Shown: positions 2,702-14,821 of the stretch, piece by piece
Position numbering within the stretch: the stretch's first letter is position 1
Layout of the letters: every line of letters starts with the position of its first letter
Assembly: GCA_002292185.1 (NCBI GenBank)
Contig: DBBL01000195.1
Coordinates: 12,553 to 27,373, forward strand
Direction: 5' to 3'
Source: Akkermansiaceae bacterium UBA985
GTDB lineage: Bacteria; Verrucomicrobiota; Verrucomicrobiia; Verrucomicrobiales; Akkermansiaceae
DNA: 14,821 bases
The notes under the pieces: generated by a model
What the model was told of the DNA's origin: nothing
What the model saw: the letters and a program-made list of their open reading frames with translations, nothing else
The model's database searches: none
Translations under genes and position numbers: made by a program

Positions 2702-3127
2702 ATGAATATCCCCGAGTTTACTACCCATGAAGATGTAATGTTTTTTGATACTGATTGTGCTGGAGTCGTTAACAATATTGCTTATCTCAGGATGATTGAG
2801 ACTTGTCGTACTCACCTAGGAGCAAAAATGGGCATGGATTTTCAATCGATGGGCTCGAGTCAGCTTTATCCGGCCGTATTACGAACAGAAATCGATTATC
2901 GTGTTCCCGCCGTGCTGGGAGATAAACTCAAAATTTATGGGAAACTCGAACTGCTCGAGCGTGTTCGCTTTTGGTGCTCTTTTGTAATGACTAGAGAAAG
3001 TGACGATAAGGTGCTCGTCACGTGCCGCCAGTCACTCGCGATGGTGCAAATGGGCGACGGTAAGCCGGCACGCCCTACTCGTCTTCCTGGCGAATGGACA
3101 AGCCAATGGGGGCATCTCCTCGGGTAG
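2702..3127 (+). CDS. Acyl-CoA thioesterase of the 4HBT/YbgC hotdog family
   Basis: 141 residues, a typical length for single-hotdog thioesterases of the YbgC/4-hydroxybenzoyl-CoA type. These hydrolyse acyl-CoA, or in some members acyl-ACP, in the cytoplasm. The N-terminal signature is clear: FFDTDCAGVVNNIAYLRMIE (residues 14-33) matches the family pattern of an acidic residue followed by GxV and an aromatic position before the central helix. D16 or D18 would be the catalytic aspartate, D18 by analogy with YbgC. The second half (RTEIDYRVPAVLGDKLKIYGKLE) fits the following beta strands. YbgC of the tol-pal cluster is one relative, but no tol-pal genes are near, so the substrate cannot be named. 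The ATG at 2702 has no good Shine-Dalgarno motif; a GAGGTG lies about 20 bases upstream, too far away to help. Confidence 0.85.
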   Translation: MNIPEFTTHEDVMFFDTDCAGVVNNIAYLRMIETCRTHLGAKMGMDFQSMGSSQLYPAVLRTEIDYRVPAVLGDKLKIYGKLELLERVRFWCSFVMTRESDDKVLVTCRQSLAMVQMGDGKPARPTRLPGEWTSQWGHLLG

Positions 3128-10699: not shown

Positions 10700-10715
10700 A
10701 GTTCCACGTGGAACA
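10700..10715. promoter_or_regulatory. parS centromere-like site (ParB binding), intergenic copy
   Basis: AGTTCCACGTGGAACA contains the perfect 14-base palindrome GTTCCACGTGGAAC (10701-10714). It matches 15 of 16 bases of the parS form TGTTCCACGTGGAACA, a variant of the bacterial consensus TGTTNCACGTGNAACA. It lies between the divergent usp and mnmG genes. ParB loads here and spreads to help segregate the origin region. Confidence 0.88.
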
Positions 10716-10810: not shown

Positions 10811-12709
10811 GTGTTCACCTACCCCCAAACATACGATGTTCTTGTCATCGGCGCCGGTCACGCTGGAGTTGAGGCCGCGCTTGCCGCTGCCAGGCTCGGG
10901 TGCTCAGTCGCCGTGCTTACGCAGAACTTGGATACCATGGGTGCGATGTCGTGTAACCCAGCGATTGGTGGCCTAGCAAAGGGGCACATGGTTCGTGAAA
11001 TTGATGCGCTCGGTGGTGCTATGGGCCTGAATACAGATGCCACTGGGATCCAGTTCCGTATGCTCAACGCCAGCAAAGGACCTTCCGTTCGTGCCCCTCG
11101 AGCGCAGTGTGATAAAAAAGCCTACCAGTTCCGCATCAAACACACCCTGGAATCCACCCCCGGTATTGACCTTCACCAGGCCAACGTCACCAAACTCCTC
11201 ACCAAAAACGACACGATCACCGGGGTGGCCACCTCACTGCAGATGCAGATTAACGCCCACTCTGTGATCCTCTCTGCCGGCACATTCATGCGCGGCCTGA
11301 TGCACGTCGGCATGAAAAACGAAAAGGGAGGCCGCATGGGTGATGCCACCTCAACCGTATCTGACTGCCTCTATGAGCTTGGTTTTCAAGTGGAACGCTT
11401 CAAGACCGGCACCCCCTGCCGCATTAACGGGCGCTCCATTGATTTCTCCAAAACTGAGGCCCAGCATGGTGATAGTCCCCCACCCTTCTTTTCCTACCTG
11501 GCTGATACATTGACACGCACCGCAGATGATGTTCATAGCCTCAATGGGCGCCTTGTTAAGCCTGAAGATGATCAGCAAGATGAGGATTCCACTGAAACAA
11601 CAGATGAGAAGTTCCACGTGGAACAAATCCCCTGCCACATCACCTACACCAGCCCCCAAACCCACGACATCATTCGTAATAACCTCGATAAATCTCCCAT
11701 GTATGCGGGGAAAATCGAAGGCCCTGGCCCACGCTACTGCCCTTCTATTGAGGATAAGGTTGTCAAATTTGCTGAGAAAGAGCGCCACCAGGTCTTTCTT
11801 GAGCCAGAGGGTCGCCATACTAGGGAGTATTACATCAATGGCGTTTCCACCTCCCTCCCCTATGATGTGCAGCTCGACTTCATCCACTCTATTGCGGGGC
11901 TCGAAAACGCGCAGATTATCCGCCCAGGCTATGCCGTAGAGTATGATTACTGCCCCCCTACCCAACTCTCCCCAACTCTTGAGACCAAAAAAATCTCAGG
12001 CCTTTATTTTGCCGGTCAGATAAACGGCACATCGGGTTACGAGGAAGCCGCAGCCCAAGGCCTCATGGCGGGTGCGAATGCAGCCTTCAAAGTGCTTGGT
12101 AAAGCCGAATTCATCCTCCATCGAGACCAGGCTTATATTGGAGTCATGATTGATGACCTTGTTACCAAAGGCACCACCGAGCCTTACCGCATGTTCACTT
12201 CCCGTGCTGAATACCGTTTACTACTGCGTCAGGACAATGCTGACCTGCGGCTTACGCCCCTCGCTATCGAAAACGGCCTCGTTACAGGCACTCGAGCTAC
12301 CCGCACTGAGCAAAAAATAACGGATTTGGCCGCTGCTAAAGCGCACCTCCCCACCCTGTCCCATGAGGGCGTGAAGCTAGACCACTGGTTCCGCAGATCT
12401 GAAAATTCCCACACCACCCTGCCCTCTGAAATCCTCTCCCAGGCGCCAGCCAAGCTCTGGCCCCTGATTGAGACTGACTTCAAATACGCAGGCCATTTGA
12501 ATCGCCAACAAATCCAAGTTGAGCGGCTCAATCGCATGGAAGACAAAAAGATACCGGAAAACTTCGACTATTCTAAGGTCTCCGGTCTCAAGGCTGAGGC
12601 CCGCCATCATCTTGACACCATCCGCCCAACCACGATCGGTCAGGCCTCTCGTGTCTCCGGCATCACCCCGGCAGACCTCGCTATTGTTGCCATCGCTTTG
12701 CGGAAATAA
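10811..12709 (+). CDS. mnmG: tRNA uridine-5-carboxymethylaminomethyl modification enzyme MnmG (GidA)
   Basis: 632 residues, against 629 in E. coli. With MnmE it adds the carboxymethylaminomethyl group to U34 of certain tRNAs, using FAD, NADH and methylenetetrahydrofolate. The N-terminal Rossmann motif is [19 protein letters not shown] (GAGHAG at 14-19). SCNPAIGG supplies the first conserved cysteine (C48) and QIPCHITYT the second (C275). Further motifs are [15 protein letters not shown] (199-212), [21 protein letters not shown] (about 296-316), [18 protein letters not shown] and [21 protein letters not shown]. The MnmE-binding C-terminus ends with [26 protein letters not shown]. Residues about 231-267 form an acidic insert absent from E. 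coli MnmG; a parS site lies at its end. The GTG start fits the family; only a weak AAGGG lies 12 bases upstream. The rsmG and par genes that often follow mnmG are not present downstream. Confidence 0.97.
11610..11625. promoter_or_regulatory. parS centromere-like site (ParB binding) inside mnmG
   Basis: The same AGTTCCACGTGGAACA occurs here, exactly 910 bases from the intergenic copy; the identity extends to 18 bases (AAGTTCCACGTGGAACAA). It is read in frame as KFHVEQ (residues 267-272 of MnmG), at the end of a lineage-specific acidic insert. Two copies of a 16-base near-consensus palindrome within 1 kb beside mnmG are very unlikely by chance. Confidence 0.88.
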
Positions 12710-13340: not shown

Positions 13341-13435
13341 ATGAAAGCGACGTGCCTTCTGAATCAATGAAAAAGGCGAGGGGAGCACAAGGGTTAGTTC
13401 GCAAACCGAATCAATACATCATCCAGATGATTTAG
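13341..13435 (+). other. Two coupled mini-ORFs (9 and 22 codons)
   Basis: An AGGAG (13329-13333) stands seven bases before ATG 13341, which encodes MKATCLLNQ and stops at 13368-13370. The stop overlaps a second ATG (ATGA at 13367-13370) whose frame gives MKKARGAQGLVRKPNQYIIQMI and ends at 13435. This is the only strong Shine-Dalgarno motif seen at a candidate start in the window. It may be a leader peptide, a decayed gene start or chance; no homology is recognised. Confidence 0.2.
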
Positions 13436-13638
13436 ACGCACGGCAGCTGAGAGAGCCTAAGGTCATAAAGCATCCAGAAAAACACCAACAGAATATAGCT
13501 AACAAAAAATGACAACAAAAAAACTAACAGGATAATTTTTGATGTTTTGTCGAAGGTGTGTTCAAAGTGTTGGTGTTGTGTGTATTAATCTAAGAAATAG
13601 GGCGGGGGACACAACGGATACTAGGTTGCAATTTTACA

Positions 13639-13666
13639 TTGGACCACTTGCTACCCATTTTATAAA
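13639..13666 (+). promoter_or_regulatory. Possible promoter reading into the cassette array
   Basis: TTGGAC (13639-13644) and TATAAA (13661-13666) are 16 bases apart; the -10 box matches five of six consensus bases and the -35 only three. It ends 24 bases before the first cassette junction, in the place and direction of an integron cassette promoter, and could drive both membrane-protein cassettes, which have almost no leader of their own. Confidence 0.4.
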
Positions 13667-13690
13667 CTACCACCTCCTGTCCATTTAACT

Positions 13691-13697
13691 GTTCTGC
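13691..13697 (+). other. First recombination core of the array (possible attI or remnant junction)
   Basis: GTTCTGC is the junction where cassette 1 begins (cut expected between G13691 and T13692). The bases before it do not form an attC-like hairpin and do not share the conserved 19-base stretch of the two real attC sites, so this may be the attI side or the point where the array has been cut off. Confidence 0.45.
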
Positions 13698-14163
13698 TAA
13701 AATAAAAAGTGCAAGAATCTCATTCAATTTATAAGAAGCCATTTCACGAAGTTTTCCTACAAGATTATGGAGATAGCCTCCTTAATTGGGGGATTTTATC
13801 GATAATTCCTTTAATTCTATTCCTGTTAGTCTTGTTCAAAGCAAAGTCACGATCTGGAATAATTGGAGCTAATATAACCATATCGATTTTATGGTGTATT
13901 ACCCTTCTTGGATTTCATTTTATGATGTCTTTTGGGGAAGCTTTCGTTGAGGGCATCGATGATAAAAGATTTGCAACTTGGGGAGTATTGACCGTGATCA
14001 CAATCATAATTTTTTCGTATCTTAACTCTCGAAAAAAACCTCTGCAGAACAAGGCGGCGCACACCAATCCACTACCCGCTCCGAGTCGAAGTTTAAATGA
14101 AAATTATGAACCTTAACCTGATAACAAAGCTCGCCCTCCGGTAGTGGATGGGTGGCCTTTACG
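13692..14163 (+). mobile_element. Integron cassette 1
   Basis: This 472-bp unit runs from the cut in GTTCTGC to the cut in GTTCGCT. The coding part is visibly AT-rich compared with both mnmG and cassette 2, suggesting a separate origin. The leader before the GTG start is only 17 bases, so expression must come from an upstream promoter. Confidence 0.82.
13709..14116 (+). CDS. Unrecognised three-helix membrane protein (cassette 1)
   Basis: 135 residues from a GTG; no other start is available before residue 72, and no Shine-Dalgarno motif is present. I do not recognise a family. Three hydrophobic segments are visible: about 24-43, 51-73 and 89-105. Positive residues (KAKSRS, 44-49; NSRKK, 106-110) follow helices 1 and 3, and the acidic loop GEAFVEGIDD (76-85) lies between helices 2 and 3. 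By the positive-inside rule the N-terminus would be outside and the C-terminus in the cytoplasm. From about residue 112 the protein is translated from the attC itself (NKAAHTNPLPAPSRSLNENYEP), so its tail is a by-product of the recombination site and the frame stops inside it. AT-rich codon use differs from the chromosomal genes. The function is unknown. Confidence 0.7.
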   Translation: MQESHSIYKKPFHEVFLQDYGDSLLNWGILSIIPLILFLLVLFKAKSRSGIIGANITISILWCITLLGFHFMMSFGEAFVEGIDDKRFATWGVLTVITIIIFSYLNSRKKPLQNKAAHTNPLPAPSRSLNENYEP

Positions 14164-14169
14164 TTCGCT
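14044..14169 (+). other. attC recombination site 1
   Basis: R' GCAGAAC (14044-14050) opens the site and R'' GTTCGCT (14163-14169) closes it, 126 bases in all. The inner L arms AAGGC (14051-14055) and GCCTT (14155-14159) pair. Next come CACC (14062-14065) with GGTG (14151-14154), an A/G mismatch, and a perfect 10-bp stem ATCCACTACC (14067-14076) with GGTAGTGGAT (14140-14149). The centre is unpaired and variable. The stretch CTACCCGCTCCGAGTCGAA (14072-14090) is identical in attC 2. Confidence 0.85.
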
Positions 14170-14758
14170 CCAATAATGAAAAACAGAGCCATCCCGCTTA
14201 TTGCCTCTCTAGCCGTTTTATCGCCGGCGATTTTGCATGTTGAAAAGACCGTGTGGGTGATGTTTCGCTACGGTGACCCGAGATACATGGCTTGGGGCAT
14301 GGCCATCTCTGCACTGATCGCGTTCTGGGCATCTCGCCGGATGCGACGCAGCTTCCACGTGGCGCTTATCGTCGCCGCGATTCTCCCTCTTTGGTATGCA
14401 ATGCTCATGGCTGCCGACTCGGGCTATCGAAACTGGCAGGGTAGTGCGAATGCGCCAGCAGAGGCGTACGCCGATACCGGCCCGATTTTCTTTCTGATCG
14501 CGGGATGGTTCCCTAGCTGGGGAATCGTCTATTTGCTGTTACTCCTCTTCCAACGGATCGTTCCACGCTCACCCGTTTCGCCTCCGCCACTACCATCGCA
14601 CCCGAGGTAAAAACGCCCATTCCCGACAAATTTCTCAAGCGAACAAGGCGGTGCTGGACAACCGGCTACCCGCTCCGAGTCGAAATGATCTCCGCAGCTA
14701 CAACCCTCACACAGCAGTCGAAGGCGCGCCACCGGTAGCCGGTGTCAGACCTTGGACG
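14164..14758 (+). mobile_element. Integron cassette 2
   Basis: This 595-bp unit runs from the cut in GTTCGCT to the cut in GTTCGGC. Its ORF starts 12 bases after the junction, as in most promoterless cassettes. It is clearly richer in GC than cassette 1, which points to a different donor. Confidence 0.85.
14176..14610 (+). CDS. Unrecognised four-helix membrane protein (cassette 2)
   Basis: 144 residues from the ATG at 14176. An in-frame GTG at 14152 would start inside the preceding attC, across the recombination junction, and is rejected. I do not recognise a family. Four hydrophobic segments are visible: about 5-22, 36-52, 59-79 and 102-126. A basic cluster RRMRR (54-58) links helices 2 and 3 and would be cytoplasmic. 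A polar loop rich in Ala, Asp and Asn (81-100) lies between helices 3 and 4, and the tail is proline-rich (PRSPVSPPPLPSHPR, 130-144). The short YGD..(3-4)..WG pattern at 32-41 recalls YGDSLLNWG (20-28) in cassette 1, which may be chance. The stop is 28 bases before attC 2. No Shine-Dalgarno motif is seen; expression would depend on upstream transcription. The function is unknown. Confidence 0.75.
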   Translation: MKNRAIPLIASLAVLSPAILHVEKTVWVMFRYGDPRYMAWGMAISALIAFWASRRMRRSFHVALIVAAILPLWYAMLMAADSGYRNWQGSANAPAEAYADTGPIFFLIAGWFPSWGIVYLLLLLFQRIVPRSPVSPPPLPSHPR

Positions 14759-14764
14759 TTCGGC
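14638..14764 (+). other. attC recombination site 2
   Basis: R' AGCGAAC (14638-14644) and R'' GTTCGGC (14758-14764) bound 127 bases. AAGG (14645-14648) pairs with CCTT (14750-14753). GACA (14657-14660) pairs with TGTC (14743-14746) and CCGGCTACC (14662-14670) with GGTAGCCGG (14734-14742), leaving A14661 unpaired on one side. An unpaired base of this kind is what integron integrases use to choose the strand. The 19-base stretch shared with attC 1 is at 14666-14684. Confidence 0.87.
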
Positions 14765-14775
14765 AATAATAAGAA

Positions 14776-14803
14776 TTGACACGTGTATCAAATGTGATAC
14801 ATT
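14776..14803 (+). promoter_or_regulatory. Promoter of cassette 3
   Basis: A perfect TTGACA (14776-14781) and TACATT (14798-14803) are 16 bases apart. The start of transcription would fall at about 14810, the A of the ATG, so the message would be leaderless. Confidence 0.65.
14784..14801. promoter_or_regulatory. Operator-like inverted repeat in the cassette 3 promoter
   Basis: TGTATCA, AATG, TGATACA is a perfect 7-bp inverted repeat. It fills the spacer and enters the -10 box, where a bound dimer would block RNA polymerase. This is the layout of autorepressed antitoxin promoters. Confidence 0.65.
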
Positions 14804-14809
14804 ATTCCC

Positions 14810-14821
14810 ATGCCCCAGACT
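14810..14821 (+). CDS. Start of cassette 3 gene, possibly an antitoxin (partial)
   Basis: Only ATG and three further codons (MPQT) are in the window. The antitoxin idea rests entirely on the dedicated promoter with its palindromic operator and on the cassette setting; four residues cannot identify a family. There is no Shine-Dalgarno motif and probably no leader. Confidence 0.45.

Follow-up and report, generated by a model that had tools for sequence, protein, structure and literature searches.

Integron cassettes are inserted by the integrase IntI, which recombines the attI site, or an attC, with folded attC hairpins at the G/TT position. Recombination at this position leaves cassettes with their signature of a core and its reverse complement. 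The large sedentary chromosomal integrons, typified by the Vibrio superintegron, resemble those of the relatives examined here, in which an IntI and an attI go with numerous attCs similar to one another. Arrays of at least two attCs with no integrase nearby are known as CALINs, the two-attC threshold being the one given in PMC9024848. The same survey counted 2961 CALINs and 2760 complete integrons, which makes the two about equally frequent (PMC9024848). The ways in which CALINs are proposed to arise include the loss of intI (PMC8618304), and their cassettes have been described as mobilisable in trans (PMC9668308, PMC12444791). The Xanthomonas integron downstream of ilvD, as reported in PMC12444791, is fixed by a housekeeping gene and has lost intI in some lineages, and strains with the same lesions usually carry identical arrays. 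Verrucomicrobiota are among the phyla listed with integrons in PMC8618304; among the papers listed, as judged by their titles and abstract openings, none is devoted to the integrons of this phylum.

The locus described here lies in a window of 14,821 nt, which is the whole stretch of DNA analysed, from the draft genome G000. The window array is a CALIN with an attI. As in other CALINs, G000 has several attCs, two of them in the window and further ones on another contig (C114), all called with a model of our own, while an IntI is lacking both nearby and in the rest of the draft (84.6% complete, 199 contigs; a copy elsewhere in the genome could have been missed). Unlike a typical CALIN, it keeps its attI and part of the intI flank, and intact sisters display the layout that preceded the loss. 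The array is thus very probably the attI-proximal part of an ancestral chromosomal integron that sits downstream of mnmG and has lost its intI. Like the Xanthomonas integron, it has a fixed place next to a housekeeping gene, and intI is gone from some lineages. It differs from that integron in phylum and neighbour gene (here Verrucomicrobiota and mnmG), and in that G000 and its sister G005, despite a common intI-less junction, differ at attI. Compared with the sedentary type, the array is short as seen and lacks intI, and the IntI proteins of the relatives measure 620-719 aa.

All cassette units of the window lie on the plus strand, with limits set by the core/attC pattern. Cassette 1 (13691-14162) holds a 135-aa membrane-like ORF (13709-14116) and attC 1 (14044-14169). 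Cassette 2 (14163-14757) holds attC 2 (14638-14764) and an ORF that ends at 14610 and measures 152 aa when counted from the GTG at 14152, with an in-frame ATG at 14176; it has 28 homologous protein clusters, one of them bearing the name Luteolibacter. Cassette 3 begins at 14758 and reaches the end of the window at 14821. The cores named in the original prediction are present, GTTCTGC at 13691, GTTCGCT at 14163 and GTTCGGC at 14758, and the attC openings GCAGAAC (14044) and AGCGAAC (14638) are, as claimed, exact 7-base reverse complements of the core of their own cassette. A scan of both strands for this grammar (a core, its exact reverse complement followed by AAG, then CTT..GTT) finds two chained units in the window and no others, and none on the other strand. 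Across 300 dinucleotide shuffles of the window, 0.047 units appear in each and a chained pair in 0/300. A chance pattern as the source of the two units is ruled out by these shuffles together with the covariance model described below. Nothing matched in the window in an Rfam search at gathering scores or a tRNA scan, a promoter scan before cassette 1 stayed at chance level, and PADLOC gave no defence-gene match among 10 cassette ORFs.

The attC calls were made with our own covariance model, R1, and not with IntegronFinder. It was built from 10 attCs of the relatives G008, G013 and G012, leaving out the window and an eleventh attC, from G013. This search for attC structure, called for by the original prediction, matches both expected sites, 14044-14169 with 33.4 bits (E 6e-7) and 14638-14764 with 22.1 bits (E 4.3e-4), and finds nothing else in the window up to E 10. 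Both window sites thus have the secondary structure and conserved boxes of an attC according to a model made from relatives only. In the R1 alignment 87.1% of the cells pair; sliding the partner by one, two or three columns lowers this to 29-41%, and the alignment's covariation is equalled in 0/500 shuffles. Of the five shuffle measures, two stand out little: changes on both sides of a pair are equalled in 72/500 shuffles and further pair types in 138/500. The structure of R1 was, moreover, drawn from the sequences that make up this alignment. Hairpin energy alone was set aside as weak evidence for an attC: for bottom-strand folding, 10/200 shuffles are as stable as attC 1 and 53/200 as stable as attC 2. 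An exact scan of the genome for AACAAGGCGG finds 11 places; judged by eye, the resemblance to an attC is confined to the two that lie in the window. R1 matches five times in G000, at most four of these being placed (two in the window and two on C114), and once in each of the clade sisters G005 (E 0.07) and G006. In the third, G003, it has no match, and DNA similarity to attC 2 is detected there instead.

The right edge of the window is the end of its contig, and the array continues on C114. The last 66 nt of the window (14756-14821) are exactly the first 66 nt of C114 read backwards (L137 3764-3829), so that cassette 3 can be followed across. This is the only end overlap of at least 20 nt among 43 pieces, two all-N contigs aside, the pieces being 40 other contigs (two of them compared over 20,000 bases), C114 and both ends of C132. 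The overlap begins 2 nt ahead of the core of cassette 3, and a break there would fit two different left neighbours of this cassette in the sequenced population. On the minus strand of L137, cassette 3 carries RelB and YafQ frames (Pfam RelB, YafQ_toxin), the only ones named by Pfam among eight C114 frames tested. At least four further cores follow, at minus-strand positions 3127, 2289, 1103 and 513, which brings G000 to at least seven cores over the two contigs; seven is a lower bound, because the core pattern was limited. The reverse-complement rule is exact for the units at 3127 and 1103, holds for 6 of 7 bases in cassette 3 and in the unit at 513, and is ambiguous at 2289; some of the sites lack the 3' GTT and look degenerate. 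The next attC had been expected to open with GCCGAAC and was found as GCCCAAC, six of the seven bases being right and one wrong. The expectation of more attCs beyond the window is itself borne out.

The placement of the array on a chromosomal contig of a verrucomicrobial genome, about 1 kb past mnmG, is also supported. The mnmG gene (gidA; 10811-12709, plus strand) encodes GIDA and SAM_GIDA_C domains and was detected in 29 of 30 relatives. Among the matches listed, its closest named records are Akkermansiaceae, Rubritalea, Haloferula and Roseibacillus, with 67-72% identity. Two parS-like sites, each with 1 mismatch, lie just before mnmG (10700-10715) and inside it (11610-11625), and two or more such sites occur in 1/200 shuffles. 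The integron position beside mnmG belongs to part of the genus, since the flanks of six members (G001, G002, G004, G007, G009 and G012), readable for 1.5 to 20 kb past mnmG, hold no attC or IntI. In three IntI-bearing relatives it is the integron's own site and no chance landing place: G008, G011 and G013 have an IntI above the TIGR02249 cut-off downstream of mnmG and on the opposite strand, at 0.9, 1.2 and 3.1 kb respectively, in the order mnmG, intI, attI, cassettes.

A predicted attI lies beside the first cassette, and the last 31 nt of this attI form a motif (13663-13693, plus strand) ending in the GTT where cassette 1 joins. The same motif stands directly ahead of the first cassette in G008, G011 and G013. 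Within the 14 genomes of the genus (G000 included) it has one copy each in G000, G005, G008, G010, G011 and G013 and none in the other eight, and a reversed control also gave none. Matches in G000, G008, G011 and G013 are expected, because the pattern was written from these four. An imperfect palindrome like GATAGACAACCGGTCGTCTATC adjoins the outer side of attI in G008, G011 and G013 (L086, L087, L088) and is eroded in G000 (13630-13662), G005 and G010; it could be a site for the integrase or a regulator. Further upstream, at 13406-13440, the window retains a 35-nt relic of the sequence that borders intI in G011 directly beyond its 3' end; the best of three tandem copies there is 92% identical to it. 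A dispersed repeat is ruled out for this stretch, as a 141-nt query around it matches just G000, G005 and G011 among the 14 genomes. From remnant to attI the distance is 222 nt in the window and about 2.3 kb, intI included, in G011. In the latter, ~199-nt tandem repeats (L087 2769-3342) carry extra copies of the intI 3' end together with the adjoining flank.

The integrase itself is present in most of the genus and missing here. An IntI above the cut-off is found in 9 of the 14 genomes, the exceptions being G000, G003, G005, G006 and G010. No IntI frame occurs in the 954 nt from mnmG to attI or elsewhere in the G000 draft, so that the intI next to attI that marks a complete integron is absent, and within 13441-13662 no decayed frame is seen, local alignments being gapped and unconvincing. 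With the full-length IntI of G013 as query (E <=10), the five genomes lacking IntI give only partial matches to ~300-aa frames, which are read as Xer-type from their length and match; G010 also has two weak matches to a repetitive stretch. The attI of G010 has no adjoining IntI on its 4.5-kb contig. In the MnmG tree, from which G004 was left out with its mnmG in two pieces, G000, G003, G005 and G006 group together (100/99), as do G008, G011 and G013 (86/87). The tree tentatively pairs G000 with G003 (support 92/89, unstarred, and with half of the columns for G003), against the nucleotide identities to G000, which are 93.4% for G005 and 88.4% for G003. The intI-less junction is visible in G000 and G005 only; in G003 and G006 the contig breaks off within mnmG or close to it.

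The IntI frames of G008, G011 and G013 (L086 3642-5504, L087 3363-5522 and L088 5283-7442, all minus) share with the 473-aa IntI of G012 some 170 aa ahead of the usual IntI core. They also have a variable leader, and Pfam names their C-terminal part alone. The nearest PDB entry to the IntI core is IntI4 (2a3v, E 4.5e-105), and an AlphaFold model of a relative's IntI is poor, with a mean pLDDT of 51. Between intI and attI, G008 has two small overlapping frames (L086 5919-6430, minus) that look by eye like a toxin-antitoxin pair, and a match to the attC model lies at L086 5793-5910, minus. According to that model, there are integrons of predicted superintegron size in the genus. In G012 (contigs C1 and C17-C43) all 150 scored candidates match it, out of 1759, which gives at least 150, and in G013 (C17, C22) 71 of 150 scored candidates do.

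Along the 10.9 kb that lead up to attI, the sister G005 matches the window with 93.4% identity; it departs from the window after a common GTTC at the attI core. Rather than being identical in distant relatives, the locus therefore already changes at the attI core between these sisters. The 39 nt of G005 beyond the junction, where its contig stops, are identical (39/39) to the start of the seventh core unit of G000. Both genomes thus have the intI-less junction and differ in the unit joined to attI. The 214 identical nt before the junction were rejected as a sign of special conservation, being only the fifth longest run in the alignment (287, 282, 235, 218 and 214 nt). Cassette 4 has a copy with 92.6% identity in G005, at a contig end and with other genes beside it.

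The ancestral state would have been mnmG, an intI on the opposite strand, attI and cassettes that IntI had inserted by the G/TT recombination described above. As G005 has the same junction, intI was probably deleted before the two sisters split, leaving in G000 a piece of the intI flank, attI, at least seven cores and no intI in the draft. Since the cassette joined to attI differs between the sisters, recombination at attI may have continued once intI was gone; the IntI would most likely have come from elsewhere, which is the least certain step. It is proposed, tentatively, that an attI without its own integrase since before the split kept gaining or losing cassettes through IntI supplied in trans. 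The source would be other members of the genus or incoming DNA, and cassettes would pass between species whose mnmG genes are nearly 30% different.

Cassette transfer between species, beyond vertical descent, is firmly indicated by sequence comparison, because the identity of the cassettes is far above that of mnmG. For cassette 1, the identity to a cassette of G002 is 91.5% over 492 nt, while the mnmG genes of the pair have 71.8% identity. Copies of cassette 3 in G009 and G002 (mnmG 73.8 and 71.8%) have 93.2% and 91.1% identity to it, and in both the similarity ends at the start of the attC. Between G000 and G002, cassette 1 differs at 6 of 74.5 synonymous sites (dS 0.085), and the dS of mnmG is saturated. 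Between G000 and G005, five core genes differ at 402.2 of 1859.3 synonymous sites, with a dS of 0.13 to 0.36 by gene. Set against these, the dS of cassette 1 gives Fisher p values of 0.003 for the five-gene pool, 0.014 for mnmG and 0.53 for hflX, the slowest gene. Cassette 3, with a dS of 0.27-0.32, seems to have spread at about the time of the G000-G005 split, and cassette 4 has a dS of 0.13 between these two. The values suggest that the transfer of cassette 1, in either direction, postdates the loss of intI. Entry of cassette 1, or loss of the first six units in G005 by recombination, would imply that IntI from elsewhere acted on attI.

Alternatively, the array may be frozen, without any integrase action since the loss of intI, and this is quite possible, if short of probable. 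The difference between the sisters would then have its source in ancestral polymorphism, homologous exchange with another strain, deletion between short homologies or an error of metagenome assembly. The Xanthomonas arrays with a common intI lesion (PMC12444791) would fit such stasis, the GTTC on both sides of the G005 junction is enough for a short-homology deletion, only 39 nt of that contig lie past the junction, and the dS test is not uniform, as the comparison with hflX shows. Nevertheless, the change sits on the integrase's own cut site, the new neighbour begins exactly at a cassette core, and cassette 4 stands in another setting in G005. These points argue against a frozen array.

The loss of intI has alternatives as well. 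The gene could be unassembled or lie elsewhere in the genome, since arrays break assemblies, the window's contig ends within one, and draft genomes are said to overestimate CALINs (IntegronFinder 2.0, PMC9024848). This is improbable, given that the native interval from mnmG to attI is fully assembled in both G000 and G005 and holds no intI, and that all four genomes of the clade (completeness 84.6, 84, 92 and 96) lack an IntI above the cut-off, while 9 of the remaining 10 in the genus have one. Less probable still, and nearly refuted, is the reading that intI was never here and that a distant IntI put the cassettes in off target. Such an origin is among those proposed for CALINs (PMC8618304), and the G002 copy of cassette 1 has neither a recognisable attC nor a window-type attI before it. 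Here, however, the docking site is the very motif that stands between IntI and the leading cassette next to mnmG in three relatives, and part of the intI flank is still present at 13406-13440.

The array thus belongs to a recognised class, the CALINs, with a history better documented than most, and it is possibly not frozen. The origin of a given CALIN is usually obscure, whereas here the intact layout, the intI flank and attI can be compared at one locus, as can two intI-less sisters with different first cassettes. The analysis also brings to light a genus of Verrucomicrobiota in which attCs occur in large numbers. Within it, this locus documents a loss of intI and lets the movement of cassettes without a resident integrase be tested.
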